From NCBI GenBank assembly GCA_002425225.1, contig DILV01000018.1:117960-181959 (forward strand): DNA of 64,000 bases, read 5' to 3'. A program made the translations under genes and the position numbers. The stretch comes from Thiothrix sp. UBA5583. Lineage in GTDB: Bacteria > Pseudomonadota > Gammaproteobacteria > Thiotrichales > Thiotrichaceae. Shown in pieces: positions 6,497 to 24,504 of the stretch; positions within the stretch are counted from its first letter, which is position 1, and the number at the start of each line of letters is the position of its first letter. The notes beneath the pieces are model-generated. The model had not been told where the DNA came from. It worked only from the letters and a program-made list of their open reading frames with translations, and searched no databases.

Positions 6497-6510
6497 GCAG
6501 GAGGTGTAAG

Positions 6511-7531: not shown

Positions 7532-7587
7532 TCGGTCTGGGGTAAACTTACCCGCTATCACCACCAGAATGACTGCAAGGATAATGC

Positions 7588-9075
7588 ATGAACTACCACT
7601 TTGAGGCATCTGCCAACCCCGCCACCATCCATACCGATTGCGTGATCGTGGGCATCTATAAACAGGGCAAACTGTCAGCGGCGGCCAGTCAACTGGATGC
7701 AGCCAGTGAAGGTGCCATTACTGCCCATCTGGACATGGGTGATTTCAGCGGCGACAAGCATCGTACCAGCCTGGTGTACAAACTGCCGGGTGTTACCAGC
7801 AAACGAGTGCTGCTGGTGGGCATGGGGGAAAAGGACAAACTAACCCAGGAATCCCTCGCACAGCTTACCCAAACAGCAGTTAATGCGCTGAAAACCAGCA
7901 AAACCAACAATGTGGTTTCCTTCCTGACCGATGAAATTGCCCCGGACTTTCTGGAAGCAGCCGTGCGCCAAACAGTAACTGCCGTAACGGATGCGCTGTA
8001 CACTTTCGACCAGTTCAAGAGCAAGAAAGACGAAGCAGCCCGCCCGGTATTGGCAGGCTGGACGGTTGCCCACACACTCGCCGGTGATTTCAGCAAACCA
8101 CTCAGTCATGGTATTGCCATTGCTGAAGGCATGTGCGTCGCCCGTGACCTTGCCAACAGCCCCGGCAATGTCTGCACCCCCTCCCATCTGGCAATGGTGG
8201 CGCAGGAGCTTGCCAATTCTTCCAACAAAACCGACGTCAACATTCTTGAAGAAGGCGACATGGAAGCCTTGGGCATGGGTTCTTTCCTGTCGGTGTCCAA
8301 GGGCAGTGCGCAAGACGGCAAAATGATCATCCTGCAATACCACGGCGGTAAAACCGGTGAAGCGCCGCTAGTACTGGTAGGCAAAGGCATTACCTTCGAC
8401 ACCGGTGGCATCTCACTTAAACCGAGCGCTGCCATGGATGAAATGAAATTCGACATGAGTGGAGCAGCCAGTGTGTTGGGGACAATGACCGCCTGCATTG
8501 CCATGCAATTACCCTTGAATGTGGTCGGCATGATCGCAGCGGCTGAGAACATGCCTAGCAGCAAAGCCAGCAAACCGGGCGACATCGTGACCAGCATGTC
8601 CGGCAAGACCATCGAAATTCTCAATACGGATGCGGAAGGTCGTCTGGTCTTGTGTGATGCCCTCACCTACGCCGAACGCTTCAACCCGGCAGCCGTCATC
8701 GACATTGCTACCCTGACTGGTGCGTGCATCACTGCGCTGGGGCATCACACCAGTGGACTGCTTGGCAATAGCGATGCACTGGCAGAAGAAATCATCATTG
8801 CCAGCAAACAGGCCAGTGATGATGTGTGGCGCTTGCCTATGGGTGAAAAATATCAGGATCAGCTCAAAAGCAACTTCGCCGACATGGCAAACATTGGTGG
8901 CGCACCGGGCGGCACGATCACCGCCGCCTGTTTCCTGTCACGCTTTGCCGAAAACTATCCGTGGGCACATCTGGATATTGCCGGTACTGCCTGGAAAAGC
9001 GGTGCGGCAAAAGGCGCGACCGGACGCCCGGTTCCCCTGCTGTGCCAATGGCTGATCAACCGTGCTGGCACATGA
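7588..9075 (+). CDS. pepA: Leucyl aminopeptidase (M17)
   Basis: A 495-residue M17 metallopeptidase that removes N-terminal residues from peptides in the cytoplasm; in some bacteria PepA is also a DNA-binding accessory protein. The C-terminal catalytic domain carries VGKGITFDTGGISLKPS, the metal-binding signature NTDAEGRLVL (about residue 346) and IDIATLTGAC. Length is the usual one for the family. The stop overlaps the start of holC by four bases, as in many gammaproteobacteria. Confidence 0.95.
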   Translation: MNYHFEASANPATIHTDCVIVGIYKQGKLSAAASQLDAASEGAITAHLDMGDFSGDKHRTSLVYKLPGVTSKRVLLVGMGEKDKLTQESLAQLTQTAVNALKTSKTNNVVSFLTDEIAPDFLEAAVRQTVTAVTDALYTFDQFKSKKDEAARPVLAGWTVAHTLAGDFSKPLSHGIAIAEGMCVARDLANSPGNVCTPSHLAMVAQELANSSNKTDVNILEEGDMEALGMGSFLSVSKGSAQDGKMIILQYHGGKTGEAPLVLVGKGITFDTGGISLKPSAAMDEMKFDMSGAASVLGTMTACIAMQLPLNVVGMIAAAENMPSSKASKPGDIVTSMSGKTIEILNTDAEGRLVLCDALTYAERFNPAAVIDIATLTGACITALGHHTSGLLGNSDALAEEIIIASKQASDDVWRLPMGEKYQDQLKSNFADMANIGGAPGGTITAACFLSRFAENYPWAHLDIAGTAWKSGAAKGATGRPVPLLCQWLINRAGT

Positions 9076-9500
9076 CCAAAGTTGATTTTTACGTTGGCAA
9101 GACCAACAGTTTGCAGGCACGGCTGTTGCTGGCCTGCAAGGTCGTGACCAAAGCCCATCAACACGGGATGCCGACCTACATCCACACCGACAGCCCCGCC
9201 ACGACCGCACGACTGGATGATTTGTTGTGGACATTTCACGACATTGCGTTCATTCCTCATGCACTGGCTCCCAGCAAGGAAGCCAATAGCCGCATCCTGC
9301 TGGGGCATGATCACGAGCCGATGGAAAACTGTGGATTGCTGATTAATTTATCCAACGAAATACCGTCTTTTTTCTCGCGGTTTGAACGTCTGGCTGAAAT
9401 TCTGGATCAGGAAGAAGCTATTTTGCACGCTGGTCGCAAACGTTATCAGTTTTATCGGGACAGGGGCTATAATCTGGACTACCATCAACTGAATATCTGA
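9072..9500 (+). CDS. holC: DNA polymerase III chi subunit
   Basis: A 142-residue protein of the replicative clamp-loader assembly; chi links the DnaX complex to single-strand binding protein. The start is the ATG at 9072 overlapping the pepA stop (ATGA). Family features visible are MTKVDFYVGKTN at the N terminus, ACKVVTKAHQHGMPTYIHTD, LDDLLWTFHDIAFIPHAL and the C-terminal LINLSNEIPSFFSRFERLAE. A longer upstream frame exists but lies inside pepA. Confidence 0.92.
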   Translation: MTKVDFYVGKTNSLQARLLLACKVVTKAHQHGMPTYIHTDSPATTARLDDLLWTFHDIAFIPHALAPSKEANSRILLGHDHEPMENCGLLINLSNEIPSFFSRFERLAEILDQEEAILHAGRKRYQFYRDRGYNLDYHQLNI

Positions 9501-9517
9501 CAACAGCCACAAGCAAC

Positions 9518-9856
9518 ATGATGCAGGATTTTGACAAAACCATACGCATTCCGGTCATTACCGATCTGGTAAGAGCAGGTAATCCTGAGGTTGTGGGTGT
9601 AACCAAAAACCAGCAAGCCAAACAGCAGCGTCGCCAGGTCTTTGAACAACGCCTGAAGGAACGCATTGCCGAGCTGCAATCTGCCACCGGACAAGATGAA
9701 TATTCCGGCTTGGCGCGTGCCCATGCCATCCGCTCGGAAAGCCACCGGGAAAACGACGCATCCACCCAGTCGCGTTTCGACCCTTCAGTAGAAAAGCACA
9801 TCGACGCCGCCCGCCACGAGCTGATCCGTGAACTTTCCGGGATGTTGAAGCCGTAA
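9518..9856 (+). CDS. Small hypothetical protein between holC and valS
   Basis: A 112-residue soluble, charged protein with no signal peptide or membrane segment. It begins MMQDFDKTIRIPVITDLVRAG; the second Met at 9521 is an equally good start. Residues 30-55 (QQAKQQRRQVFEQRLKERIA) and the C-terminal VEKHIDAARHELIRELSGML look helical, possibly coiled. It sits 17 bp after holC and 47 bp before valS on the same strand, so it is probably cotranscribed. I recognise no family; function unknown. Confidence 0.7.
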   Translation: MMQDFDKTIRIPVITDLVRAGNPEVVGVTKNQQAKQQRRQVFEQRLKERIAELQSATGQDEYSGLARAHAIRSESHRENDASTQSRFDPSVEKHIDAARHELIRELSGMLKP

Positions 9857-9903
9857 AATCCCGTTATAATGCCGTGTTTTGGACTTGCACAAAGTAGCGG
9901 CAC

Positions 9904-12729
9904 ATGGAAAAGACCTACCAACCTCAAGACATCGAACAACGCTGGTATCAGCACTGGGAACAAAGCGGCTATTTCGCCCCCAAAGGCGAAGGCAAGCCGT
10001 ATTGCATCATGATCCCGCCGCCGAACGTCACCGGCACGCTGCACATGGGGCACGGTTTCAACCAGATGGTGATCGACACCCTGATCCGCTACCACCGCAT
10101 GAAGGGCGACAAAACCCTCTACCAACCCGGCACTGACCACGCAGGCATCGCCACGCAAATGGTGGTGGAACGCCAATTGCTGGCACAAGGTGTGACCCGC
10201 CACGATCTGGGGCGTGAGGCTTTCCTCGAAAAGGTCTGGGAGTGGAAAGGGCAATCCGGCGACACCATCAACCGCCAATTGCGCCGTTTGGGGACGACCC
10301 CCGACTGGTCACGCGAACGCTTTACGATGGATGAAGGCTTGTCGGAGGCGGTGCGTGAAGTGTTCGTGCGCCTGCATGAAGAAGGCTTGATCTATCGCGG
10401 CAAACGCTTGGTGAATTGGGATACCGTGTTGCACACCGCTGTTTCCGACCTTGAAGTTGTGTCCGAAGAAGAAAACGGCAATATGTGGCACTTCCGCTAC
10501 CCGCTGGCGGATGCGGCGGGCAATGCCACTGACGAATTCCTGATCGTTGCCACCACGCGCCCGGAAACCATGCTGGGTGACTCCGCCGTGGCGGTGAACC
10601 CGAAAGACGAGCGCTACCAGCATTTGATTGGCAAAAACGTGGTGCTGCCGCTGGTGGGGCGCTTGATTCCGGTGGTGGGCGACGATTACGCTGACCCAGA
10701 AAAAGGCACGGGCTGTGTGAAAATTACCCCGGCACACGATTTCAACGACTATCAGGTGGGCAAGCGTCACCACCTGCCGCTGATTAATATTTTTACCATT
10801 GATGCCTGCATCAACGAGGTAGCACCGGAAAAATATCAGGGTCTGGAACGCTTTGCGGCGCGTAAGCAAATCGTCGCGGACATGGACGCGCTCGGCTTGC
10901 TGGACAAAATCGAAGACCACAAGCTGATGGTTCCGCGTGGCGACCGTTCCGGCACGGTGATCGAACCGTACCTGACGGATCAGTGGTACGTGGATTTGAC
11001 CCGCGAAACGCTGGATGACGGACGACCCGGCGGCAAAACCGCGATTGCCCAACCGGCGATTGACGTGGTGGCGAATGGTGAAGTGCGCTTCATTCCGGGC
11101 AACTGGGTGAACACCTACAACCACTGGATGAACAACCTCGACGACTGGTGCATTTCACGCCAATTGTGGTGGGGGCATCGCATTCCGGCGTGGTATGACG
11201 AGGCGGGCAATGTTTACGTGGCGCGTTCCGAAGCTGAAGTACGCAGCAAATACAGCCTGCCTGCCGACCTCGCCTTGCGTCAGGATGAGGACGTGCTGGA
11301 TACGTGGTTCTCCTCCGCGCTGTGGCCGTTTTCTACCCTCGGTTGGCCGAATGTTGACGATGAGGCACTGAAAGCCTTCTACCCGACCCAAATGCTGATG
11401 ACCGGCTTCGACATCATCTTCTTCTGGGTGGCGCGGATGATCATGTTCGGCAAGAAATTCATGGGCGACGTGCCGTTCCGCGACGTGTACATCCACGGGC
11501 TGGTGAAGGATGCGGACGGGCAGAAAATGTCCAAATCCAAGGGTAACGTACTCGACCCGCTCGACATTATCGACGGCATCGACCTCGAAGCACTGGTTGC
11601 CAAACGCACTACTGGTTTGATGCGTCCCGAAGATGCTCCGAAAATCGAAAAGGCCACCCGCAAGCAATTCCCCGACGGCATCACCCCGCACGGCACGGAT
11701 GCGCTGCGCATGACCTTTGCCTCGTTCGCCACGGCGGGGCGCGACATCCGCTTCGATATGCAGCGGCTGGAAGGCTACCGCAATTTCTGCAACAAGCTGT
11801 GGAACGCGGCGCGTTACGTGCTGATGCAGTGCGAAGAGCAGGATACCGGGCTGGACGCATCCTTGCCGGTGGAATTGTCGGCGGCAGATCGCTGGATCAT
11901 TTCCTTGCTGCAACAGACCGAGGCTGAAGTCGCCGACCACATCGACAATTACCGCTTCGACCTTGCCGCCAAAGCGATGTACGAATTTGCCTGGCACGAA
12001 TACTGCGACTGGTATCTGGAGCTGACCAAGCCGATTTTAAGCAAAGCCAACGACAACCAGGCCGCCAAACGTGGCACACGCCGTACCTTGGTGCGCGTAC
12101 TGGAAGCAGCGTTGCGCCTGATGCACCCGATCATGCCGTTCATCACCGAAGAAATCTGGCAGAACATCAAGGGCTTGGCGGGCGTATCCGGCGATTCCAT
12201 CATGCTGCAACCCTACCCCGTCGCCGACACGGCACTGGTTGACCAAGCCGCGCTGACGGAAATCGAATGGGTGAAAGCCTTCATCATGGGCATCCGCCGC
12301 ATCCGCTCCGAGATGGACATCAAGCCGGGGCAAGTGCTGGACGTGCTGCTGCAAAACTGGAACGACACCGACAAGGCGCTGTTCACCACCAGCGAAGCGT
12401 TTGCGCGGACGCTGGCGAAAGTCGGCAACGTGACGTGGCTGGAAGCGGGGGCGGATGCGCCGGAGTCGGCTACCGCACTGGTTGGCGAAATGCAAATCCT
12501 CATCCCGCTGGCGGGGCTGATCGACAAAGACGCGGAAATTGCGCGGCTGAGTAAGGAAATCGAGAAGCTGCAAAAGAATCTCGGCGGGTTGGAAGGTCGG
12601 CTGAATAATCCGGCGTTTGCGGACAAAGCTCCGGCAGCAGTGCTGGAACAGACGCGCAAGCAGGCGGATGAGCAGCGCGTGGCGTTGGGACAGTTGGTGG
12701 GGCAGTTGGAGAAGATTCGGGCGTTGTGA
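9904..12729 (+). CDS. valS: Valyl-tRNA synthetase
   Basis: A 941-residue class Ia synthetase that charges tRNA-Val. The HIGH-type motif is HMGH at residues 47-50 and the second signature is KMSKS at about 541-545. The editing domain (CP1) lies between roughly 190 and 350 with [11 protein letters not shown], and the anticodon-binding and C-terminal coiled-coil tail ([20 protein letters not shown]) follow. Length matches the family. The last 139 bp (12591-12729) have a decayed second copy at 13207-13332. Confidence 0.97.
12591..12729 (+). repeat. valS 3' end, left copy of a flanking direct repeat
   Basis: The last 139 bp of functional valS. It matches 13207-13332 in long blocks, for example CGGCTGAATAATCCG, AAAGCTCCGGCAGCAGT and ACGCGCAAGCA. 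The pair brackets the brnT remnant and brnA. Confidence 0.85.
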
Positions 12730-12733
12730 TTGA

Positions 12734-12865
12734 CTGAATCCTTATCGTAAATTGCGCTTGCAGACGTTGGGATTATGGAACGGGGTGGTTGTATTTGTGG
12801 TACACACGCCCCGTTTGTATAAAGACCACATTATCTCCATCCGTAAGGAAGGCAGAGAAACATGA
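12734..12865 (+). pseudogene. Remnant of a BrnT-type toxin gene
   Basis: A frame without a start codon, opening right after the valS stop, encodes RLQTLGLWNGVVVFVVHT and then HIISIRKEGRET before a TGA at 12863-12865. This matches the C-terminal half of BrnT ribonuclease toxins (the TLG..nGvvvFVVHT block and the later rIISiRKa.k.E block). The N-terminal half with the catalytic Lys/Glu is missing. The stop overlaps the brnA start, the normal brnTA coupling. Assignment is from memory of the family pattern, not from a search. Confidence 0.65.
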
Positions 12866-13188
12866 AGAACGAATCTACTGGAAGTATTTCCCCCGATAAC
12901 CTGACCGATTGGGCGCAGGTACGGGCGATGAAAGATGAAGATATTCATCATGATGCCGATAGCCCCAAGACTACTACCGATGACTGGGAAGGCGCAGTGA
13001 TGAAGGTGGCAGGGAATGAAGTCGGTACAGTACGCACACGCGGGCGGCAAAAAACACCACCTAAAGTGCAACTGTCGCTACGGATTTCCCCAGACGTGGT
13101 GGAATTTTTCCGCGCAACAGGTGATGGCTGGCAAACACGCATGGATGATGCTTTGCGCGAGTGGGTGGAGCAGCATAAAGCAGCTTAG
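12862..13188 (+). CDS. brnA: BrnA-family antitoxin
   Basis: A 108-residue protein of the BrnA (DUF4415) type. The N-terminal part has LTDWAQVRAMKDEDIHHD, typical of BrnA antitoxins, and the C-terminal part is a ribbon-helix-helix DNA-binding domain (KVQLSLRISPDVVEFFRATG, then WQTRMDDALREWV). BrnA normally binds BrnT and represses the shared promoter. Here the toxin is truncated, so brnA is an orphan antitoxin that might act on a BrnT elsewhere. It lies inside a segment bounded by two copies of the valS 3' end. Confidence 0.82.
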   Translation: MKNESTGSISPDNLTDWAQVRAMKDEDIHHDADSPKTTTDDWEGAVMKVAGNEVGTVRTRGRQKTPPKVQLSLRISPDVVEFFRATGDGWQTRMDDALREWVEQHKAA

Positions 13189-13206
13189 TAATTACCTCGA
13201 AAGGCG

Positions 13207-13332
13207 GGAAGGACGGCTGAATAATCCGCTATTTGCGGATAAAGCTCCGGCAGCAGTATTCCACAAACGCGCAAGCAAGCGGGTTAGCAGCGGGCTACTT
13301 TGGGGCAGTTGAAGAAAATTCGGGTGTTGTGA
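13207..13332 (+). pseudogene. Decayed duplicate of the valS 3' end
   Basis: A 126-bp degenerate copy of the valS tail with substitutions and small deletions relative to 12591-12729, ending at a TGA that matches the valS stop position. It has no start codon and cannot make a functional product. It is what remains of the original valS end, or of a duplication, beyond the brn segment. The following 118 bp (13333-13450) hold only AT-rich sequence and presumably the promoter of the next operon. Confidence 0.85.
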
Positions 13333-13450
13333 ACTAATAATTACTTCTGCCAGATGTTTATATCTTCCGGCAAAAGTCAGAAATGATATTTTATGTAATG
13401 AAAAGAGTGTCGAAGCATGACGAATACACGGAAATTTAGATTCAAGTCAG

Positions 13451-14446
13451 ATGAGTCATATGGCCACTGAAATATATCAAACTCAATATGGAAAACTGTT
13501 TGGTGCTAACTTTAACGATCTGCACCTAGACCTATTAAAAGAAAAATACCAAGGAAAATTTAACTTAATAATAACATCGCCACCGTTCCCTCTGAACAAC
13601 AAAAAAAAATATGGAAACCTGAAAGGCGAAAATTACTACCAATGGTTTGCTGATTTAGCTCCTATATTTTATGATCTCCTTGCAGATGATGGCTCATTAG
13701 TAATAGAAATAGGAAATTCTTGGGAGGCTAATAGACCCGTCCAATCACTCCTTCACTTGGAATGTTTATTCTCACTTGTTAAAAATGAAGATTCCGATTT
13801 AAGATTAATACAAGAATTCATTTGTTATAACCCCTCACGCTTACCATCTCCTGCACAGTGGGTAACAGTTAATAGGTTGAGAACAGTAGATAGCTATACG
13901 CATGTATGGTGGTTAGCCAAAAGTGATTTCCCCAAAGCAGATAATTCAAAAGTGCTACGTCCTTACTCTAAAGGCATGAAGAAACTTATAGAAACCAAAC
14001 AATATAATGCAGGAAAACGACCATCAGAACATGACATTAGCCTACAAACCTTTGCAAAAGATAACGGTGGCAGCATTGCTCATAATCTGATAGAGCTAGA
14101 ATCAATAGATGAATCTCGTGATGTCAGATTGCCACATAATGTTTTAAGCTTTTCTAATACAAGCTCAAATGATCACTACTCAAAACAGTGTAGAAAAAAT
14201 GGCATTACGCCCCATCCTGCCCGGATGCCACAAGGATTAGTTAATTTTTTTATTCAGTTTTTAACTAATGAAAATGATCTAATTCTTGATCCATTTGCGG
14301 GAAGCAATACAACAGGATATTGTGCGGAAAAGTTAAATCGGCAGTGGATTTCTGTTGAAGCGGACAAAAACTATGCTTATGATTCCATTGTGAGATTTGA
14401 AGACCCAAGCATTGACTCAAAACTTGAGATCATAACCCCAAAATAG
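13451..14446 (+). CDS. DNA methyltransferase, permuted N4-cytosine/N6-adenine type
   Basis: A 331-residue S-adenosylmethionine-dependent DNA methyltransferase. The catalytic motif TSPPF is at about residues 43-47 and the SAM-binding motif DPFAGSNTTG is near 280-289, so the order is permuted (catalytic before SAM-binding). TSPP is more common in N4-cytosine enzymes, but base specificity cannot be fixed by eye. A target-recognition stretch lies between (about 110-250). There is an in-frame second ATG at 13460. The gene is AT-rich compared with its flanks and is 12 bp upstream of the HerA-like gene, with a GAGAGG ribosome site between. Confidence 0.88.
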   Translation: MSHMATEIYQTQYGKLFGANFNDLHLDLLKEKYQGKFNLIITSPPFPLNNKKKYGNLKGENYYQWFADLAPIFYDLLADDGSLVIEIGNSWEANRPVQSLLHLECLFSLVKNEDSDLRLIQEFICYNPSRLPSPAQWVTVNRLRTVDSYTHVWWLAKSDFPKADNSKVLRPYSKGMKKLIETKQYNAGKRPSEHDISLQTFAKDNGGSIAHNLIELESIDESRDVRLPHNVLSFSNTSSNDHYSKQCRKNGITPHPARMPQGLVNFFIQFLTNENDLILDPFAGSNTTGYCAEKLNRQWISVEADKNYAYDSIVRFEDPSIDSKLEIITPK

Positions 14447-14458
14447 AGAGGCAAACCA

Positions 14459-16531
14459 ATGATTACCCAACAACTAAATTTAATAATGGAAGGTGATATT
14501 TTCAAGGATGGTCGTGATCAGTCTCTTTTTGTTGGGCGACCATACTACCTTGATTATGAACAAGCTAATATTCTTGTTTCAGATGCTTGGAAACACCGAG
14601 TCAAGGGCATTCCTCAAGGTGCATTTTTATTAGCATTCTATGATGGAGAAGATGGCGTAGATGAGGCTTTATTATTACGAGCATTAGCCCCTTCAAAACT
14701 ACCAACTGATAATAATATTGTTAGCTCCATGATTGAATATTACAAAGAAGGCACAGACATAAGTGGAAGAGCAGACAGCGAACAAAAAAGTAAACTTGAC
14801 GATTTTACACGTTATGAATTCAGTTTTTCTGGCTTACAATGTAGAGTACTTGGATCATTTTACAAAATAAAGAAAAGTATAGGACAAGGAAAAGCAAAAG
14901 AAACTATTGAATTTGGTGCTGACTTAGAAAACTTTTATTCTGCCAACAATTACAGTGTTTATAAAGCCACAGATAAAATTTTGCAAAAGATTACTAATCA
15001 ACGTGACCAAGGAATTATTGCAGGTAACGAAAACGAATTCAAAATAGGTGTTGTGCGGTATAGTTCAAACCGTCGCTTTCAGTCTACTGAGAAGGAAGTG
15101 GATGTTTTTGTGAGTCCCCAAGACCTTATCGGAAAACGAACAGCACTTTTTGGCATGACTAGAACAGGAAAATCAAATACAGTCAAAAAAATTATTGAAG
15201 CAACTGCTGAAATATCTAAAAAATCCCCCACTAAAACATTGCCAAATACCGTCACGTCATCAACGCCTTTTACACAAGATGGATCACCACAGTATCCAGT
15301 CGGACAAATTATCTTTGATATAAATGGAGAATATGCAAATCCCAACATGCAGGATCAGGGAACTGCCATTTATGAGCTGTATCAAAATAATGTAATTAGA
15401 TATTCCATCACTGACAAAACATCTGAAGGTTTTAAAGTTTTAAAAATAAACTTTTATAATGAGATTCAAGCAGGATTCAGATTAATAGTAAGTGCACTCT
15501 CAGATGAAAGTAGTGCCTATATTAAAAGCTTTTGCACTGTTGATCTTGTTGAACCAGAAAATTACAAAGCACCTCGCGATCAAAAAACCAGCGATGAAAG
15601 AAATGCAGCAATTGCATATGACAAAAAAATCGCCATTTACAAATGCTGTTTACATGAAGCAAAATTCAAAAAATCATCTAGTCATAATACGGTAAAATTT
15701 TATGGTGATGCAGGAACAATCAATAAAATTGTTCCAAATATAAAGCCCCATTCTGGAATTTCTTTAGAAGATGCATCTTTTTGGTTTCAAGAAGTCTTTA
15801 ACGCTATGGCATCAGATGAGCATAAAGAAAAATTTGAAGAATACAAAAAAGAGAAGGGGAAGAACTTTTTTGATGAGGATATGTTGGCACTTCTCACATT
15901 TTTAACTAGAAAACCAGCACCGGGCAAACAAGCTAGTTATAGTGGATTTAGATTATTGCGTCAGTTTCAGAACTTACATACCGAGTTATCAAATACATCT
16001 TTTGAACAAGAAATTCTCTATAGTTTACGAAAAGGTAATATCATCATAATAGATTTATCGCAAGGAGAAGAAAATATAAGAAGATTATATTCAGAAAAAA
16101 TCACTCGTAAAATATTCGAAAATTCCATGGATAGGTTTACAAAAACATTACCTAATAACTTCATTCAGTTCTACTTTGAAGAGGCTCACAATCTTTTCCC
16201 AAAGCAAGAGGAAAAAGACTTATCGAATATTTACAATCGACTTGCCAAAGAAGGAGCAAAACTTAGTTTGGGGATAGCATATGCCACACAAGAAGTTAGC
16301 TCCATCAGTGCAAATATCTTGAAAAACACTCAAAATTGGTTTATTGCGCATTTAAATAATGAAGATGAATTAAAAGAATTAAAGAAATACTATGACTTTT
16401 CAGATTTCACTGCTTCATTATTGAAATTTAGTTCCGGCAATGATAAAGGCTTCGTAAGAATGAAAACATATACAAATCCTTTTGTTGTTCCAGTTCAAAT
16501 TGATAGATTTCTGGCTAACAGAGAGGTATAG
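14459..16531 (+). CDS. HerA-like ATPase / DNA translocase
   Basis: A 690-residue P-loop ATPase of the HerA/FtsK superfamily. An N-terminal region (1-215) that may include a HAS-barrel precedes Walker A GMTRTGKSNT (about 232-241) and the HerA-typical IIFDINGEYA (about 283-292). The C-terminal part has IIIIDLSQGEEN (about 528), Walker-B-like FYFEEAHNLFPKQEE (about 571) and ATQEVSSIS (about 605), also HerA-like. HerA hexamers pump DNA and work with NurA nucleases. The NurA-like gene starts four bases after its stop, so the two are an operon. AT-rich codon use suggests transfer. Confidence 0.88.
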   Translation: MITQQLNLIMEGDIFKDGRDQSLFVGRPYYLDYEQANILVSDAWKHRVKGIPQGAFLLAFYDGEDGVDEALLLRALAPSKLPTDNNIVSSMIEYYKEGTDISGRADSEQKSKLDDFTRYEFSFSGLQCRVLGSFYKIKKSIGQGKAKETIEFGADLENFYSANNYSVYKATDKILQKITNQRDQGIIAGNENEFKIGVVRYSSNRRFQSTEKEVDVFVSPQDLIGKRTALFGMTRTGKSNTVKKIIEATAEISKKSPTKTLPNTVTSSTPFTQDGSPQYPVGQIIFDINGEYANPNMQDQGTAIYELYQNNVIRYSITDKTSEGFKVLKINFYNEIQAGFRLIVSALSDESSAYIKSFCTVDLVEPENYKAPRDQKTSDERNAAIAYDKKIAIYKCCLHEAKFKKSSSHNTVKFYGDAGTINKIVPNIKPHSGISLEDASFWFQEVFNAMASDEHKEKFEEYKKEKGKNFFDEDMLALLTFLTRKPAPGKQASYSGFRLLRQFQNLHTELSNTSFEQEILYSLRKGNIIIIDLSQGEENIRRLYSEKITRKIFENSMDRFTKTLPNNFIQFYFEEAHNLFPKQEEKDLSNIYNRLAKEGAKLSLGIAYATQEVSSISANILKNTQNWFIAHLNNEDELKELKKYYDFSDFTASLLKFSSGNDKGFVRMKTYTNPFVVPVQIDRFLANREV

Positions 16532-16535
16532 AAGC

Positions 16536-17891
16536 ATGGCGATTACATCTCGAAGCTCCAAACCAAATGAATGGGCGGCAAAAATAAACCACACTCATTT
16601 GATCAATGATCCTTTTATAAAAAACTTCATTGATAACTGCCATCTCCCCAAAGATTGTTCGGATGTGGACATTGCAGATATTAGCGAGATCAACACGTTA
16701 CCTCAAAATATCAACAATCCAATTAATTATATTCTTACTGTTGATGGCGGTTATACAATAGTTGAGCCAAAAAAGACTTTTCCATCTTCACAAATTGCTT
16801 TTTTTCAATTTGGGGCAATCTTATTAAAGACTAAGGATCTAAATGACTTATCAGAAAAACCATTTATCTTTCCCGAAGATATGCAAAAGCTACATAATTT
16901 GGAAAGACTTAAGCTAGCTATCCCAATAAAAGGCATAACTCGTAGAAAAGAAAATTCACTCAATAACTCCATAAGAAAAACATTGCATGAATTTTTCTTG
17001 CAAGATAGAGGTGATGGTACATCTTTAATGGAAAGTCTTAAGTGGCTTTTATTTAGAGAGTATAAGAATACACCTACTGAAAAATACACCTTAGGTAGCG
17101 ACCCAAACAAGAATATAGAAGATTGCAAAATAGATATTATCAGAAGCCAAATAAAATCAGACTTCACATTTGAATCTAGCTCAGGCTTGATATATTTAAC
17201 AGATGTGTTTCGTCTGCACGAAATTGTGGATGAAGAGCATGGTGCATCTGGTCTGCTTGGTTATTTAACACGAGCAGTTGAACAACTAATAATTGTTTAT
17301 TACATTCATTATTTATACAAAAAACAATCATCTTTAATAAAAGAGTTTCTCTTTGTATCAGATGGCCCTCTAAGTTTTGCAGGACAAACTGCCAGATTAC
17401 ATCAGCCATTAAGGGAATTATGTAATTTTTTGAGAGAAAAAGATTACTTATTTTTAGTTGGGGTAGAAAAAAGTGGAGCTTTCACTGAACATGCTCAGCA
17501 AATTTGCTCGGCGAAAGATTCTATTCTCAAGTATGGACAGTATATCTTATTGAATAACCAGTATATTTACAAGTATATAATACCTGGCGAAGCAGATAAA
17601 ACCACTTATGGATCGACTTCTTACTACAGCGGAAAGGTTATTTTTTATTCTAACGACAAACAAATACTAACGATTACTGTACCAACACCTGATAAAAACT
17701 CTGTCTTATCTCCCAACAAAAATGACTATGCTAATTTGGATATAATCCTACTGAATCTTCAAAAATTAAGATGTAATATGTATGACGACTCTATTGTTCC
17801 TGTTGCATTGGCAAATAAATTAGTTTCACTATCTAACCACCCAAGTCAGATCTTACTCGAAAAATTCACAAAGACAACCATGAAGTTATAG
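16536..17891 (+). CDS. NurA-like nuclease
   Basis: A 451-residue protein with the marks of a NurA domain: ILTVDGGYTIVEPKK (about residues 63-77, acidic catalytic motif of the DGS type) followed by AFFQFGAILL, and near the C terminus FLFVSDGPLSFAGQTARLHQ and LVGVEKSGAF. NurA enzymes are 5'-3' nucleases that act with HerA. The start at 16536 has GAGAGG nine bases upstream; an earlier in-frame start would lie inside herA. The 3' end overlaps the convergent xisI-like gene by six bases. The family call is from motif pattern and from the HerA neighbour. Confidence 0.8.
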   Translation: MAITSRSSKPNEWAAKINHTHLINDPFIKNFIDNCHLPKDCSDVDIADISEINTLPQNINNPINYILTVDGGYTIVEPKKTFPSSQIAFFQFGAILLKTKDLNDLSEKPFIFPEDMQKLHNLERLKLAIPIKGITRRKENSLNNSIRKTLHEFFLQDRGDGTSLMESLKWLLFREYKNTPTEKYTLGSDPNKNIEDCKIDIIRSQIKSDFTFESSSGLIYLTDVFRLHEIVDEEHGASGLLGYLTRAVEQLIIVYYIHYLYKKQSSLIKEFLFVSDGPLSFAGQTARLHQPLRELCNFLREKDYLFLVGVEKSGAFTEHAQQICSAKDSILKYGQYILLNNQYIYKYIIPGEADKTTYGSTSYYSGKVIFYSNDKQILTITVPTPDKNSVLSPNKNDYANLDIILLNLQKLRCNMYDDSIVPVALANKLVSLSNHPSQILLEKFTKTTMKL

Positions 17892-18209
17892 CAAAGCAAA
17901 ACCTGTATATTGCCTCACTGATGGATGCCGAAACCCCAATACAATATCCGACTTGGGAATACCGGCATCCACCAATTCAGTTGCTACGCCTTCTTCCGTA
18001 CCGTCGTACTGAATCCAAATCTTACCATCAATCAACTGGATATGAATAACCGCACCTTGTAGATAATCATCTCCACGCCAACCCGCCTGCAATAAAACAT
18101 AATTGCCATGTTCATCATCAAAACTTACACTGGATTTGATGACATCATCTACGGAATCGTATTTGAGGTATTCCAACAGAATTTTCCTGATAATCTCGGA
18201 GTAACTCAA
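17886..18209 (-). CDS. XisI-like protein
   Basis: A 107-residue protein resembling XisI, the fdxN-element excision controlling factor of cyanobacteria. Visible family features are YVLLQAGWRGDDYLQGAVIH, then GKIWIQYDGTEEGVATELV and the end DIVLGFRHPSVRQYTGFA. The likely start is the TTG at 18209, which overlaps the Uma2 stop (TTGA); an ATG at 18260 inside the Uma2 gene is the alternative. XisI usually pairs with the nuclease-fold XisH; here the upstream partner is a Uma2 endonuclease, which could play that role. No excised element is visible. Confidence 0.8.
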   Translation of the reverse strand: MSYSEIIRKILLEYLKYDSVDDVIKSSVSFDDEHGNYVLLQAGWRGDDYLQGAVIHIQLIDGKIWIQYDGTEEGVATELVDAGIPKSDIVLGFRHPSVRQYTGFALL

Positions 18210-18778
18210 TTCAGCACACCCTGATAAATTGCCGCCACACTCAACACTATATCCAAACAAGGCAGCGTAATTTCATCATCCAACCGATCGAACTGCTGTA
18301 ATCCCCAGCTACCATCAGGCAAGCGTACCAGTATATCCACCTGCGCTTTATCCTGCGCAACGACCAGATAGGCTTGCAGGGAGGCAATACTCTGATAGGC
18401 CAGGGATTTTTCCATATAATCCTTGCGAATGGTGGAATCAGAAGCAACCTCAACAATCAAGCAAGGCTTTTCCAAGTAGTAGTCATCCGCCTCATCATCT
18501 GCCGAGCAACTCACCACCACATCCGGGTAATAATAGGTTTTGTATTTGGCTACCCGTACTTTTACGTCAGAGAAAAACACCTCACAGCCTTTGCGGTTGG
18601 CTGCATCCTCCATGCGATTAATAAAGTTTCTAGCAATACGGTTGTGCCGCTTGCTCGCCCCTGCCATCAGGTAAATTTGCCCATCCACATATTCATGGCG
18701 TTCAGCGGCAAGTTTTTCACCTTCCAGATACTCAGCCTCGCTAAGATATTGCCCCGACATTTGACGCGCTACAGGCAT
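18206..18778 (-). CDS. Uma2-family (DUF820) putative endonuclease, copy 1
   Basis: A 190-residue protein of the Uma2/DUF820 family with a PD-(D/E)XK nuclease fold. It has YLSEAEYLEGEKLAAERHEYVDG at the start (shown in part), GQIYLMAGASKRHNRIARNF, the acidic YYYPDVVVSC and the ExK-like LIVEVASDST. The family is abundant in cyanobacteria and other filamentous bacteria; function is not established. It shares its layout with the neighbouring Uma2 gene 9 bp upstream and its stop overlaps the xisI-like start. Confidence 0.85.
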   Translation of the reverse strand: MPVARQMSGQYLSEAEYLEGEKLAAERHEYVDGQIYLMAGASKRHNRIARNFINRMEDAANRKGCEVFFSDVKVRVAKYKTYYYPDVVVSCSADDEADDYYLEKPCLIVEVASDSTIRKDYMEKSLAYQSIASLQAYLVVAQDKAQVDILVRLPDGSWGLQQFDRLDDEITLPCLDIVLSVAAIYQGVLN

Positions 18779-18787
18779 AACATTCTC

Positions 18788-19360
18788 CTACAACACCCTT
18801 CGATAAATATCCGCCACCGTCACCCGACATTCCAGCGTACTGATTTCCACCACATCCTGCATCTCATGAAACTCGGAATAGACCCACTGCTTATCCGCCT
18901 GCCGCTGGTATTTTTCCACGCGGCAATAATCCTGCGCCACCAACAGGTATTCCTGCAAGGACGGGATCAGTTGGTAATGGAAGAATTTCAGCCCACGGTC
19001 ATAGGCTTCGGTAGATGCAGACAGGACTTCGATAATCACCAGCGGATTCAGCAATACATCGCCGTTTTCATCCTCATATAGCTCATCACCACAGGTAACG
19101 ACCACATCGGGATAGCTGAACTTGTTGGTTTTGTCGGTGCGTGTCCTGACTTTCATATCGCTGGAATAAACCCCACAAGGTTTTTCCAGCAATTGCGCCC
19201 CCAATGAAACTACCAGATTGGTGGAAATCTGCTTATGTTCGCGGCTTGCCCCCGCCATTGCGTACATTTCGCCGTTCAAATATTCACTTTTGAACTCGGC
19301 TTGGCGTTCGTGCTGGAGGTATTCCGCTTCGCTCAACAGGTAAGCAGGTTGCGCTGGCAT
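18788..19360 (-). CDS. Uma2-family (DUF820) putative endonuclease, copy 2
   Basis: A 190-residue paralogue of the downstream Uma2 gene. Starting at 19360 gives MPAQPAYLLSEAEYLQHE, with AAGGA eight bases upstream; the frame is open to 19393 but lacks a ribosome site there. Motifs are GEMYAMAGASREHKQIS, FSYPDVVVTCGDE and PLVIIEVLSAST. It heads the Uma2-Uma2-xisI cluster. Tandem Uma2 pairs are common, and this pair probably arose by duplication followed by divergence. Confidence 0.85.
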   Translation of the reverse strand: MPAQPAYLLSEAEYLQHERQAEFKSEYLNGEMYAMAGASREHKQISTNLVVSLGAQLLEKPCGVYSSDMKVRTRTDKTNKFSYPDVVVTCGDELYEDENGDVLLNPLVIIEVLSASTEAYDRGLKFFHYQLIPSLQEYLLVAQDYCRVEKYQRQADKQWVYSEFHEMQDVVEISTLECRVTVADIYRRVL

Positions 19361-19503
19361 GGTGTATTTCCTTAAGTCACTACCGCTGAACATAGCACGG
19401 CTCGCCCGCTGTCGCTATTCCGATTGAAATACCAGGCAACACTTAGCAGCACCGCTGTTGCCTCCACAAATCCCACGCATTCCAACCAGTCCAAACCAAT
19501 TAC

Positions 19504-19524
19504 GAGGGGCAGTTTGCGCCCCTC
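19504..19524 (-). terminator. Hairpin after the small secreted protein gene
   Basis: A 7-bp GC stem (GAGGGGC / GCCCCTC) with a 7-nt loop, located 14 bp beyond the stop of the gene ending at 19538. It lacks a clear T tract on the minus strand. Confidence 0.5.
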
Positions 19525-19537
19525 TAGCTGTCAACAA

Positions 19538-19909
19538 TTACTGCAACTTCAGCTTCGCCTTCACCCCATCCACCAAGCCCTTGACCTTGGTATAATCCGG
19601 TCCTGCCACAATCACTGTGCCACCGCTAGCATAAGGCTCTTCCGGTGCATCGCAGCCACCTTCGTCACTCACGCAATACAGCACGACCTTATAGTCGCTT
19701 TTGAAACCAACAACTTCGTTACGCGGATTGGTGGAACTTTTTTCGGTGACACCCAAGGCAGCAAAGGCTTTTTTGCCCTGCTCGCGGCATTCAGCCAATG
19801 GCATACTGGACTCGAAAAAGCCGGTAGTGTGCTCGATGAAAGGGGCATCAGCAGACGCTGCTGCGCTCAGGCAGAACAGGGAAGTGGCTAACCAGGATGT
19901 GATTTTCAT
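19538..19909 (-). CDS. Small secreted protein of unknown function
   Basis: A 123-residue protein from the ATG at 19909, which has AAGGA upstream and opens with a signal peptide (MKITSWLATSLFCLSAAASA). The mature part has three Cys, in AECREQ, VLYCVSDEGGC and nearby, which suggests a disulfide in the periplasm, and ends in a basic helix VDGVKAKLKLQ. I recognise no family. It is monocistronic, between a Uma2 gene and phaC, and is closed by a hairpin. Confidence 0.7.
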   Translation of the reverse strand: MKITSWLATSLFCLSAAASADAPFIEHTTGFFESSMPLAECREQGKKAFAALGVTEKSSTNPRNEVVGFKSDYKVVLYCVSDEGGCDAPEEPYASGGTVIVAGPDYTKVKGLVDGVKAKLKLQ

Positions 19910-19992
19910 TACGATGTCCTTGCAGTGATAAACAGCCACGATCATGGCATGTTCCTGCTACGTAGTCATCAGTAACCCCCTGTCAGCCGACA

Positions 19993-20011
19993 CCTCCCCG
20001 ACGAGGGGAGG
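19993..20011 (-). terminator. Hairpin after phaC
   Basis: A perfect 7-bp GC stem (CCTCCCC / GGGGAGG) with a 5-nt loop, 14 bp downstream of the phaC stop on the minus strand. No T tract follows, so termination may be weak or factor-dependent. Confidence 0.45.
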
Positions 20012-20025
20012 CGGGCGGGAAACTG

Positions 20026-21087
20026 TCAGCTACGTTTGGTCAACCATTCGCCAATGGCGGGTGGAATGGTTTTCTGTGCCTTGCCGCTGACGTAGATACC
20101 GATATGACCGCCCTTGAAAGACAGCTCGGTATAGTCAGATGAGCCAGTCGCACCATTCAGCGCACGGGACGCATCCGGCGGAACCAGGTGATCCTGCTCG
20201 GCAAACACATTCAGAATCGGCATGGTGACATTTTTCAGATCAATCGTGTACTTGCCGATCTGGACTTCACCTTTCAGCAGCTTGTTTTGCTGGAAAAAGT
20301 CCTTGATGAACTGGCGGAAAGTTTCTCCCGCCTGATCCGGGCTATCGAAAATCCACTTTTCCATGCGCATGAAGTTTTTCAGGGTCTTGGCATCGCCCAT
20401 CATGTCGACCATGCCGAGGTACTTCTGCCCCATCAACTGGTATGGCTTCAGGTTGAGGAATGTCCAGTTGAGCATTTCGCCTGGAATATTGCCGGTCGTA
20501 TCCACCAACAAGTCGATGTCGATGTTTTGTACCCAGTGGCTGAGCATATTGTCTGGCGTTTGGTAGTCAACCGGCGTCACCATTGTCACCAGATTCTTGA
20601 CCTTTTCAGGGTGCATGGCACTGTAGCACAGGCTAAATGCACCACCCTGACAAATACCCAGCAGGTTGATGGCATCCACCCCGTGGCTTGCACGGATGAA
20701 GTCCACACAGTTGTCCAGATAGCCGTTGAGGTAGTCATCCATCATCAGGTAACGGTCGGAAGCATCCGGGTAGCCCCAGTCGATCAGGTACACATCCTGA
20801 CCCGCATCCAGCAAGCCCTTGACGGTGGAACGGTCTTCCTGAATATCGGTCATGTACGGGCGGTTCACCAGCGCGTACACAATCAGCATTGGCACGGTAT
20901 TGGTCGGCTCTTTTTCACCCACGTAACGCAGCAGCTTGAGCTTGTCTTCGGTATACACCACCTCGAACGGAGTAACGCCGGAAGAAATCTCGCCGACTTC
21001 CATCAGGTTGGTCACACCCTGGGCAAGTTTTTCGTTGAAAGTTTTCACTTCGCTCAGGATCGCATCGGGACGCATTTGAAACGGCAT
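20026..21087 (-). CDS. phaC: Class III PHA synthase, catalytic subunit PhaC
   Basis: A 353-residue alpha/beta-hydrolase enzyme that polymerises 3-hydroxyacyl-CoA into polyhydroxyalkanoate. The short length and the phaE partner mark class III. The lipase-like box is GICQGG with nucleophile Cys146; Asp299 (FAEQDH) and His328 (KGGHIG) complete the triad, each three positions before the residues known in the Allochromatium enzyme. It follows phaE by 29 bp on the same strand and ends before a GC hairpin. Confidence 0.96.
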   Translation of the reverse strand: MPFQMRPDAILSEVKTFNEKLAQGVTNLMEVGEISSGVTPFEVVYTEDKLKLLRYVGEKEPTNTVPMLIVYALVNRPYMTDIQEDRSTVKGLLDAGQDVYLIDWGYPDASDRYLMMDDYLNGYLDNCVDFIRASHGVDAINLLGICQGGAFSLCYSAMHPEKVKNLVTMVTPVDYQTPDNMLSHWVQNIDIDLLVDTTGNIPGEMLNWTFLNLKPYQLMGQKYLGMVDMMGDAKTLKNFMRMEKWIFDSPDQAGETFRQFIKDFFQQNKLLKGEVQIGKYTIDLKNVTMPILNVFAEQDHLVPPDASRALNGATGSSDYTELSFKGGHIGIYVSGKAQKTIPPAIGEWLTKRS

Positions 21088-21116
21088 GTTCGTTCTCCTT
21101 GAATTCGCTGTGGTGA

Positions 21117-22226
21117 TCAGGCTTTCTTGCTACGACGGGCTGGTTTGGCAGGTGGTGCAGCTTCAGCAACAGGTTCTGTTGCCGGGGCGACTTCCGCAAC
21201 CGGGGCAGGTGCGGCTGCCGGAGCCGAAGCAACTGCGCTCAAGGCGTCCAGCTTGCGGGAAAGTTCCTGAACCTGCTGACGCAAAGCACGGATTTCACGG
21301 CGGGCTTCCTGCTGTTTCTGGAACGCTGCATTCAGCTCTTTACGGGTTGGCAGGTTGGCAGCCTCATAAATGCTATCCATTTCTGCATTGACACCCTGCT
21401 TGAATGCCATCAGCGCATTGACCAAATCACCGTAAACCACTTGATATTCATCGGTCATGGCAAATTTGCCGTAGACTTCTTCGTTAACATCCACCCACAG
21501 GTCATACAGCTCACGCAGGCTGCTGATACTCTTGCCCTCTTCACGCAGACTGGCAACCCGCGCACGCAGGGCATTCACCGATTCCAGCCCCTGCTTGGCG
21601 AAGGCTTTCAGGTAATCATCCAGCGCTTCCTGATAGTTTGCACCCAGTTGTGTCAGGGCTTGCAGACGTTCCTGGGATTCGCGGTTGTAACCGATCGCTG
21701 GCGTACCCAGCAATTTATCCAGTTGTTCCTGCCAGTTTTGTGACATTGGCATCTGGAAACCACCTGCACCCATTTTCTGGAACGCTTCCATCCCCAGACT
21801 TTTGGTGACACGCTGCCAACTGTCCAGCAATGCTTGGCCTGCGCCGAAACCGTGGGCAGAAAACTTGCCTGCATCCAGATTCGCACAGCAAGACTGAAAA
21901 CCGGATTCCATCGAGTTCATCCACGCTTCAATGGCTTCTGCGCCAGTAGCACCCGCCTGCCGGACTTTGTAGGTACTTTCTGCGAGGTTCATGTAGACCT
22001 TGCCCATGTCAACCATGCGCTGGAAAGCATCGGTAGAGGCACCGGGAACAGTGTGAGGGCTAACCGCTTTCCACCACTGATCCAGACCCTGTGTCCAGTC
22101 TGGCATGGCAGGTTGTGCAGCAATACCTGGCTGACCCATTTTGGACAAATCCGCCCACGCATCCCAGTAACGCTTTTGTGCATCAGACCAGTTTTTCATC
22201 ATATCGTCAGACCAAGCAGGTATCAT
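21117..22226 (-). CDS. phaE: Class III PHA synthase subunit PhaE
   Basis: A 369-residue partner of PhaC needed for full activity of class III synthases. It starts MIPAWSDDMMKNWSDAQKRY with a GAGGA site upstream. The middle has the PhaE-type YDLWVDVNEEVYGKFAMTDE block (about 230-250), then a coiled-coil (about 290-325) and an Ala/Pro-rich tail with basic end RRSKKA. The tail is longer and more Ala/Pro-rich than needed for the core and may contact granules. It is first in the phaE-phaC operon. Confidence 0.93.
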   Translation of the reverse strand: MIPAWSDDMMKNWSDAQKRYWDAWADLSKMGQPGIAAQPAMPDWTQGLDQWWKAVSPHTVPGASTDAFQRMVDMGKVYMNLAESTYKVRQAGATGAEAIEAWMNSMESGFQSCCANLDAGKFSAHGFGAGQALLDSWQRVTKSLGMEAFQKMGAGGFQMPMSQNWQEQLDKLLGTPAIGYNRESQERLQALTQLGANYQEALDDYLKAFAKQGLESVNALRARVASLREEGKSISSLRELYDLWVDVNEEVYGKFAMTDEYQVVYGDLVNALMAFKQGVNAEMDSIYEAANLPTRKELNAAFQKQQEARREIRALRQQVQELSRKLDALSAVASAPAAAPAPVAEVAPATEPVAEAAPPAKPARRSKKA

Positions 22227-22352
22227 TGTTCTATCCTCAATGCGTAAAAAAGGTTGCCTTTCACGAGCTTATCATGCTAATTTGTGCGCCGCAACAATGT
22301 TGACAGTTCCACTCAATTACGGCTTGCCAAAACAACAGCAATCGGCTTATTG

Positions 22353-22380
22353 TTGACAACCCAAGCGCATAGCATAGTTT
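22353..22380 (+). promoter_or_regulatory. Candidate sigma-70 promoter for phaB
   Basis: TTGACA (22353-22358), a 16-bp spacer and TAGTTT (22375-22380), 88 bp upstream of the phaB ATG. The -35 is perfect and the -10 is fair. The intergenic stretch 22227-22468 also holds the phaE upstream region and a short hairpin at 22401-22416. Confidence 0.45.
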
Positions 22381-22400
22381 GAGACATTCTACACCCCCCA

Positions 22401-22416
22401 TCTCCCGCTAGGGAGA
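22401..22416. repeat. Short palindrome related to the GC-rich repeat
   Basis: TCTCCC-GCTA-GGGAGA, followed by GAGGG, in the phaE/phaB gap. It resembles the core hairpin of the repeat at 4195-4236 and in dnaX but is shorter and may be a decayed copy or a local leader hairpin. Confidence 0.4.
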
Positions 22417-22468
22417 GAGGGAAGCAAATTGATGACAGATTACATTACTACATTGAGGAGCATTGATT

Positions 22469-23197
22469 ATGAGTAAGGTTGCACTGGTAACTGGCGGTAC
22501 TGGCGGTATCGGTAACGCGATTTGCAAACAATTTGCCGCAGAGGGCTACAAGGTAGTCACCACCTATTTCGAGCCGGAAGAGCAAGCCAAAGCCTGGCAA
22601 GCCAAGCAAGGCTATGAAGTTGCCATCTACCCTTGTGATGTCAGCAGCTACGACGATTGCGTGAAACTGAAAGAAGCAGTGGAAGCCGATTTTGGTCAAG
22701 TTGACATCGTGGTCAACTGCGCAGGCATTACCCGCGACGCCACTTTCAAGAAAATCACCCCGGCGCATTGGGCTGCGGTCATGAAAACCAACCTCGACAG
22801 CATCTTCAACGTAACTCACCAGTTCGTTAACCAGATGGCTGACCGTGGTTTTGGTCGTGTCATCAATATCTCTTCCGTCAATGGTCAGAAGGGTCAGTTC
22901 GGTCAAACCAACTACAGCGCAGCGAAAGCAGGTGTACACGGTTTCACCATGGCGCTGGCACAGGAAGTAGCACGCAAGGGCGTTACCATCAACACTCTGT
23001 CCCCTGGCTACATCGCTACCGAAATGGTTATGGCGATTGCCGAAGACGTGCGTAACAAAATCATTGCGCAAATCCCGGTAGGCCGTCTGGGTACACCAGA
23101 AGAAATGGCTGCGATCGTTTCCTTCCTGGCATCCGACAATGCTGGCTTCATCACTGGTGCGAACATTTCTGCCAACGGCGGTCAGTTCATCCACTAA
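22469..23197 (+). CDS. phaB: Acetoacetyl-CoA reductase
   Basis: A 242-residue short-chain dehydrogenase that reduces acetoacetyl-CoA to 3-hydroxybutyryl-CoA with NADPH, feeding PhaC. The nucleotide-binding motif is VTGGTGGIGNAI (about 8-19), the catalytic Ser is in INISSVNGQKGQ and the YxxxK pair is in NYSAAKAG. The PhaB-like end FITGANISANGGQFIH is present. GAGGAG lies eight bases before the ATG at 22469. It is divergent from phaEC and closed by a good terminator. Confidence 0.94.
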   Translation: MSKVALVTGGTGGIGNAICKQFAAEGYKVVTTYFEPEEQAKAWQAKQGYEVAIYPCDVSSYDDCVKLKEAVEADFGQVDIVVNCAGITRDATFKKITPAHWAAVMKTNLDSIFNVTHQFVNQMADRGFGRVINISSVNGQKGQFGQTNYSAAKAGVHGFTMALAQEVARKGVTINTLSPGYIATEMVMAIAEDVRNKIIAQIPVGRLGTPEEMAAIVSFLASDNAGFITGANISANGGQFIH

Positions 23198-23219
23198 GAC
23201 TGGCATTATCCTGTCTAAT

Positions 23220-23251
23220 ACCCTTCCCCCATGCGAGGCGGGAAGGGTTTT
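23220..23251 (+). terminator. Rho-independent terminator after phaB
   Basis: A 9-bp stem ACCCTTCCC / GGGAAGGGT (23220-23228 and 23240-23248) followed at once by T residues, 22 bp after the phaB stop. Confidence 0.85.
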
Positions 23252-23395
23252 CAGCCTGCATTCCCCCTTTTCGTGCACAAGTTCACGTTTTTTGTGTGCA
23301 TAACAAAACGTTAACCTATAGAATCAAGGCAAGAGCGACACGGCAGATGTACGCCTGATCTTGTTATCCACAGCACGACAACCAATCGACTATCT

Positions 23396-23848
23396 ATGGC
23401 AGAAGAACGCATCATCAAAAAATACCCGAACCGTCGTTTGTATGACACTACCCAAAGCTGCTACATCACCCTGAATGATGTACGCGATTTGGTACTTGCA
23501 GACACACCGTTCAAGGTTATTGACCGCCAATCTGGCGATGACATCACCCGTAGCATCCTGTTACAAATCATCATGGAACAGGAGTCTGGCGGTCAACCCC
23601 TTTTCAGCGCAGATATTCTGGAACAATTCATCCGCAATTACAGTGATACCACCCGTATGGGCTTCTCGGAATACATGCGTCAGAGCATTGATTTGTTTAC
23701 CAGCCAACAAACTGCCATGCGCGAGCAGATGCACAAGGTACTGGCAGGCACACCATTGGATACATGGCTCAAAGTAGGCGAGCACAACATGCACACCTGG
23801 CAAAAAATGCAGGAAAGCATCATGTCAAGTTTACAGCCAAAAAAGTAA
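23396..23848 (+). CDS. phaR: PHA synthesis regulator PhaR
   Basis: A 150-residue granule-associated DNA-binding regulator. The N-terminal PHB/PHA accumulation regulator domain is clear (IIKKYPNRRLYDTTQSCYIT, DDITRSILLQIIMEQES). The second half holds the DNA/polymer-binding region with EYMRQSIDLFTSQQTAMREQ. PhaR represses phasin and its own gene and is displaced by PHA. No phasin gene is present in this window. The 198 bp upstream contain the phaB terminator and no further gene. Confidence 0.93.
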   Translation: MAEERIIKKYPNRRLYDTTQSCYITLNDVRDLVLADTPFKVIDRQSGDDITRSILLQIIMEQESGGQPLFSADILEQFIRNYSDTTRMGFSEYMRQSIDLFTSQQTAMREQMHKVLAGTPLDTWLKVGEHNMHTWQKMQESIMSSLQPKK

Positions 23849-23888
23849 CTGTACCTTATCCCCAACACGACCAGACAGCAGGACAGGC

Positions 23889-24422: not shown

Positions 24423-24504
24423 TGCATGGAACGGGAGGGTATTCATTATATTGCGAAATAATAATGCTATACTGCCGTCACCCGATACCGCCAAGAAAGT
24501 TCCC

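Follow-up and report, generated by a model that had tools for sequence, protein, structure and literature searches.

In Thiothrix sp. UBA5583, a DNA methyltransferase, a HerA-family ATPase, and a NurA-like nuclease are encoded by a compact operon that is likely a variant of restriction–modification with a HerA–NurA effector. The best evidence that DNA modification belongs to its function is the repeated swap, among related loci, of the methyltransferase for one of another class. The operon lies within a window of 64,000 nucleotides, the whole stretch of DNA that was analysed, to which all positions refer unless another locus is named.

The operon and its three proteins

Three co-directional open reading frames occupy 13451-17891 of the + strand, with intergenic gaps of 12 and 4 bases, as tightly packed as the initial annotation described (Table 1). 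The sequence motifs that it quoted for the three proteins are all present, and its AT-rich composition is real: the kilobases from 13001 to 18000 have 32-41% GC, compared with 50-59% for 1-13000 and 47-54% for 18001-25000. Read from a TTG codon, the nuclease frame spans 16482-17891 (469 aa); alignment with relatives favours the ATG at 16536. Neither an R.PvuII endonuclease gene (by open reading frame list and Pfam) nor a C-protein gene is present in the operon. The phosphorothioation gene tdpC is likewise absent from it, and the gene in its place encodes an N6_N4 methyltransferase.

Table 1. Coordinates of the genes, motifs, and flanking features (positions in the window unless a locus is given)
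Feature	Position	Strand	Basis or remark
Variable cargo stretch, conserved valS end to XisI	12735..17894		alignment with 13 same-genus stretches
Degenerate copy of valS 3' end	13194..13311	+	77-82% identity to valS ends, own and same-genus
Methyltransferase gene	13451..14446	+	331 aa; PvuII family; predicted N4-cytosine
TSPPF, methyltransferase motif IV, catalytic	13574..13588	+	sequence; aligns with TSPPF of M.PvuII
DPFAGSNTTG, methyltransferase motif I, AdoMet binding	14288..14317	+	sequence; aligned with M.PvuII
HerA/TdpA-family ATPase gene	14459..16531	+	690 aa
Walker A, GMTRTGKSN	15152..15178	+	invariant in 19 aligned sequences
HerA exchangeable block, residues about 316-570	15404..16168	+	identity profiles, clustering; helices in model
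Walker B region, FYFEEAHN	16169..16192	+	E574 and E575 invariant in 19 aligned sequences
NurA/TdpB-like nuclease gene	16536..17891	+	451 aa
VDGGYT, candidate catalytic D70	16740..16757	+	D70 invariant in 16 diverse sequences
DGPL	17361..17372	+	N replaces D276 in 2 of 16 relatives
Nostocales HTH genes	L003 3658-3906; L082 5655-5903; L083 5659-5907		Pfam HTH_3 in the two scanned

The first protein matches Pfam N6_N4_Mtase (E 8e-34) and the PADLOC model MTase_II (2e-86). Its closest solved relative is M.PvuII (1boo; 2e-66 over residues 23-323), and it is 39.7% identical to the enzyme of pPvu1. The motif order is permuted, with motif I C-terminal to motif IV, the order of beta-class methyltransferases. 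The TSPPF motif presumably denotes an N4-methylcytosine methyltransferase and, together with the relation to M.PvuII, it leads to a predicted N4-methylcytosine product. A hypervariable recognition region as in type I and III enzymes was considered and rejected, as residues 139-250 (boundaries chosen by the analysts) are conserved like the other parts of the protein; across 28 loci, identity to the Thiothrix methyltransferase is 45-79% in this region and 43-79% and 51-79% in the other parts. Locus by locus, identity to the Thiothrix proteins is always higher for the methyltransferase (47-75%) than for the nuclease (40-62%; 28 loci).

The second protein matches Pfam DUF87 (E 6e-12). Its best PDB profile match, the first of eight, is TdpA at 1e-21, followed by the next at 1e-10, and a low-confidence AlphaFold model (pLDDT 64.3) also ranks TdpA first. 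The ATPase motifs are intact, and their Walker A, D/E, and Walker B residues do not vary among 19 sequences.

The third protein has a Pfam NurA match that, at E 0.015, misses the Pfam cut-off, and a profile of it finds no match among PDB sequences. Its AlphaFold model is moderate (the best of five has a pLDDT of 72.8, the others 40-60) and matches the TdpB and NurA folds; a relative from Helicobacter (E 6e-56, 29% identical) matches Pfam NurA at 4e-26. Despite the sub-cut-off Pfam score, model and relative agree on a NurA-like nuclease, and with it all three families named in the initial annotation (permuted DNA methyltransferase, HerA-like, NurA-like) hold on Pfam and structure searches. The kinship to HerA–NurA stands; the archaeal end-resection pair as closest relative does not, the closest solved relatives being TdpA and TdpB. 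In PADLOC 2023, no model matches the nuclease, and HerA gives partial matches only. No Pfam match to a SIR2 or DUF4297 effector is found in the third protein, whose fold is that of NurA/TdpB. SIR2–HerA and DUF4297–HerA systems are not known to have a modification gene.

Recurrence and exchange of parts

One genome per species was scanned for related cassettes, which gives 40 loci. A locus is testable when it has a whole HerA gene and a readable neighbourhood, as 32 do; eight (L024, L030, L032, L035, L036, L042, L043, and L044) are left out for a contig end, a fragment, or a missing gene. All 32 testable loci have an adjacent DNA methyltransferase gene, which is of PvuII type in 28, of D12 type in one (Salirhabdus), and of another N6/N4 type in three (Helicobacter; one of these was run against Pfam and the other two are assigned from a similar start). 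The PvuII-type genes are co-directional with HerA and at most 30 bases away in 27 of the 28 cases, the exception being the divergently transcribed gene of Paenibacillus (L022). The Thiothrix genome contains four N6_N4_Mtase matches over 3.55 Mb, so the odds that one falls at random within 3 kb of any chosen point are about 0.7%; a chance neighbourhood is rejected by the linkage at every testable locus, and the three-gene linkage recurs across phyla.

Annotated records add methyltransferase-linked cassettes on Deferribacter and Halorarius plasmids and in a Vibrio phage (two near-identical records). The hosts include Pseudomonadota, Cyanobacteriota, Chloroflexota, Bacteroidota, Bacillota, Campylobacterota, several candidate phyla, and archaea. 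The cassette is rare: one of 15 other same-genus genomes has it, and none of 397 others in a sample of the phylum does (E 1e-10). Its settings are mobile, on plasmids and beside integrases in the Vibrio phage and in Salirhabdus. No relatives are found in the viral contigs scanned, and the HerA DNA has no match in E. coli genomes. On the Deferribacter megaplasmid (L002, 2126-5924), the HerA gene is split by an IS200/IS605 element carrying a TnpB gene. Around 39 loci, 133 of 143 neighbouring open reading frames were scanned (ten were dropped, six of them methyltransferases already counted). The best 25 matches per scan include at least two frames similar to Septu PtuA/PtuB, two similar to GajB, three with ResIII, three with phage integrase, and one each of AbiTii and BpuJI, a tally that carries little weight.

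Methyltransferases of classes other than PvuII type occur in Salirhabdus and the Vibrio phage (D12) and in Helicobacter, Deferribacter, and Halorarius. Since they stand in the place of the PvuII-type enzyme, the modifier is replaced rather than merely lost. On a tree of 40 nuclease sequences, the methyltransferase state requires at least five changes (39 labelled rows, with "none" included), and the D12 type has at least two separate origins; 16 of the 37 inner branches of this tree are open, and its deep placements are unsure owing to long branches (L004, L005). On three related Nostocales plasmids with HerA–NurA, a search for N6_N4 and D12 methyltransferases finds none on the plasmid. A small HTH gene (82 aa) lies directly before HerA–NurA on these plasmids and, in size and kind, resembles the PvuII plasmid's controller gene.

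HerA has an exchangeable block of its own. Residues about 316-570 form a helix bundle in the model (pLDDT 64.3) and come in two discrete versions across the family. The comparison covers 157 HerA proteins (the 120 best matches of a search and 37 loci), of which 118 are non-redundant, and uses the 4,018 pairs with flanks at least 70% identical. Identity of residues 331-525 is bimodal in these pairs, with 1,815 at 30-40%, 58 at 40-45%, and 1,476 at 55-70%. Clustering at 45% gathers the flanks into one cluster of 116 and two singles, and the bundle into two clusters of 70 and 43 and five singles. The bundle version changes at least three times on the nuclease tree (29 labelled loci, with versions from identity profiles), and the sister loci of an Anaerolineae genome (L006) and Brevefilum (L009; support 100/99) differ in it.

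In Deinococcus HerA, the corresponding bundle forms the putative DNA entrance and NurA is bound by the N-terminal barrel (PMC9960219). Distances of the N-terminal part of HerA follow those of NurA best (Mantel r 0.89), a co-evolution that fits docking via the HAS barrel. Methyltransferase distances follow NurA and the HerA N-terminal part moderately (Mantel r 0.52-0.56). The variable middle domain of HerA was also considered as a site-recognition partner of the methyltransferase and rejected as unsupported by partial correlations: controlling for the rest of HerA, the bundle shows no positive link to the methyltransferase recognition region (partial r -0.21, permutation p 0.993). With the same control, the bundle is not linked to any of the three NurA parts compared (r from -0.28 to 0.10; p at least 0.11).

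The genomic slot downstream of valS

The operon is part of a variable cargo stretch. Of 13 same-genus stretches downstream of valS that were aligned (open reading frames listed for 11), seven carry XisI further downstream, in unchanged orientation and at a distance of 1.4-6.8 kb from valS. In one the XisI gene is inverted, two show matches to the Uma2 region alone, and three lack both. The cargo varies among these genomes. One of them (L070, 1220-2744) contains a complete PvuII-type restriction–modification pair, with R.PvuII (Pfam 3e-68) and an M.PvuII-type methyltransferase 42% identical to that of Thiothrix, and another contains a C5-cytosine methyltransferase. An AAA_5-type ATPase is common to two genomes (L072, and L074, with slot genes assigned by similarity to L072); in L072, the gene beside it matches PDDEXK weakly (E 0.0011, under the Pfam cut-off). 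Other slots have transposase-like or unassigned frames, as read from the starts of the open reading frames.

The acquired island suggested by the initial annotation is supported by these findings, as the cassette occupies a hotspot where some sister genomes carry other restriction genes. The neighbours that it cited are confirmed as well: Pfam identifies two Uma2 genes and XisI, and the degenerate valS copy is real and may be the scar of an element targeting the valS end. The other neighbour of the operon identified by Pfam is a BrnA-type antitoxin gene (12862-13188, +; 6.5e-21), located between valS and the operon, and the open reading frame list has no BrnT toxin frame beside it. XisI and a Uma2 gene overlap at 18206-18260. 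In L074, L075, and L078, XisI is followed on the same strand by a 145-aa frame, presumably XisH by position, which seems to have been lost from the Thiothrix locus.

Proposed function and alternatives

On balance, the evidence leans towards restriction–modification: the methyltransferase would mark self, and HerA–NurA would pump in and degrade unmarked DNA. The mark on the host's own DNA would be N4-methylcytosine at a fixed, possibly PvuII-like site, with CAGCTG, the M.PvuII site, as first candidate. A HerA hexamer and a NurA dimer would dock through the N-terminal barrel of HerA, translocate on unmarked DNA, and degrade it. Methylated DNA would block loading, translocation, or cleavage, as phosphorothioate reportedly does for TdpAB, and invading phage or plasmid DNA would be degraded; self/non-self marking and anti-phage action belong to this inferred part. 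The best solved relatives, TdpA and TdpB, are parts of one modification-linked machine, so a modification gene joined to a HerA–NurA-like effector has precedent. The reading is also favoured by the methyltransferase beside HerA at every testable locus and its replacement by other classes, by the PvuII pair in the same slot of a congener, by restriction genes next to plasmid-borne relatives of the methyltransferase, by the patchy and mobile distribution, and by the co-evolution of NurA with the N-terminal part of HerA. The Nostocales plasmids, with HerA–NurA and neither methyltransferase type sought, argue against this reading, as do the modest quality of the NurA and HerA models and the rarity of the cassette.

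A tentative and rather doubtful extension is a distinct class of restriction–modification, in which the HerA ring would thread DNA past an exchangeable inspecting entrance and deliver DNA without host methyl marks to the NurA-type nuclease. Its reader module would take varied methylation (PvuII-like m4C, D12-type m6A), and the entrance cassette would be swapped independently of the mark, perhaps against phage inhibitors. Two findings count against the preferred restriction–modification reading itself: a dedicated recognition domain was detected in neither HerA nor NurA, and the methyltransferase class shifts without a matching block in either protein. Compared by windows, the D12-paired HerA and NurA of Salirhabdus differ from PvuII-paired relatives by no single recognition block.

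These findings suit the main rival, which is nonetheless unlikely, in which the methyltransferase is a working subunit, as in type I and III systems, that finds the site and recruits HerA–NurA only where it is unmethylated. HerA–NurA would then need no specificity of its own, which agrees with a methyltransferase class that changes beside the same kind of HerA–NurA, with the lack of any HerA or NurA block that tracks it, and with a known type of site-recognition region in the methyltransferase only. However, D12 and PvuII-type enzymes would share little surface for binding HerA–NurA, the Nostocales pairs have neither type on the plasmid, and methyltransferase distances track HerA and NurA only moderately. 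Less probable still, HerA–NurA would be a defence nuclease with a trigger unrelated to missing methylation, for instance a phage protein that the entrance bundle detects, or free DNA ends; the methyltransferase would then guard only against stray cutting or act as a regulator. Two bundle versions exchanged independently of the methyltransferase are what phage pressure would produce, the Nostocales pairs are again consistent with it, and SIR2–HerA and DUF4297–HerA exemplify HerA defence (PMC11291478) that is not known to include a modifier. Against this stands a methyltransferase adjacent at every testable locus and replaced by other DNA methyltransferases. A role of the operon in DNA repair or end resection, with the methyltransferase as an accessory, is very improbable and already disfavoured. 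The fold does resemble Deinococcus and archaeal HerA–NurA, but the cassette is rare and patchy, AT-rich in a higher-GC genome, found on plasmids and in a phage, and placed in a cargo hotspot with restriction genes in some relatives; its HerA is 77% identical to a cyanobacterial and an Orbaceae protein and only 66% to that of a congener.

TdpABC is the nearest precedent for the mechanism of the preferred reading. It is reported to be a phosphorothioate-based defence of thermophiles in which TdpAB is blocked by phosphorothioate (An et al. 2025, Nat Chem Biol 21:1160, as cited in PMC13251355). Both systems couple a HerA-like ATPase and a NurA-like nuclease effector (the best PDB matches) to a DNA-modification gene, whereas the modifier is TdpC (phosphorothioation) there and a base methyltransferase here; the TdpB chain has 358 residues, against 451 in the Thiothrix nuclease, with 12-14% identity in aligned parts. 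If the preferred reading is true, HerA–NurA-type machines are restriction engines for varied self-marks, phosphorothioate (Tdp) or base methylation (here). PMC12977600 doubts end resection by archaeal HerA–NurA and suggests antiviral defence, and this doubt would be linked to a readily testable system. The family spans bacteria and archaea with a nuclease outside the PADLOC 2023 models, and the swapped HerA entrance domain is a concrete part to mutate.

Other known systems share single features with the cassette. Archaeal and Deinococcus HerA–NurA have the same two families in tandem, a motor feeding a nuclease (PMC9960219, PMC12977600), whereas the Thiothrix type is methyltransferase-linked and mobile, with a nuclease diverged to below Pfam's cut-off. 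SIR2–HerA and DUF4297–HerA likewise pair a HerA ATPase with an effector (PMC11291478), but the effector folds are other than NurA. CglI-type ATP-dependent restriction–modification has a separate ATPase subunit working with a nuclease, but that ATPase is DEAD-family helicase-like rather than HerA (PMC5737866). A literature search, mostly of papers outside subscription, found none, among the papers listed, naming a methyltransferase–HerA–NurA system; the accessible parts of PMC10853773 and PMC12839542 treat HerA/FtsK capture systems, and the word NurA is absent from them. The PvuII type II system of plasmid pPvu1 shares the methyltransferase family and has the small R.PvuII where HerA and NurA would form the restriction part here. 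Plasmid-borne close relatives of the methyltransferase also adjoin restriction genes. On an Aurantiacibacter plasmid (L084, 3941-8906), a PvuII-type methyltransferase 50% identical to that of Thiothrix adjoins genes for a DEAD/DEAH helicase, a "DNA modification system-associated small protein", and an AAA ATPase, which is another unusual modification-linked cluster.
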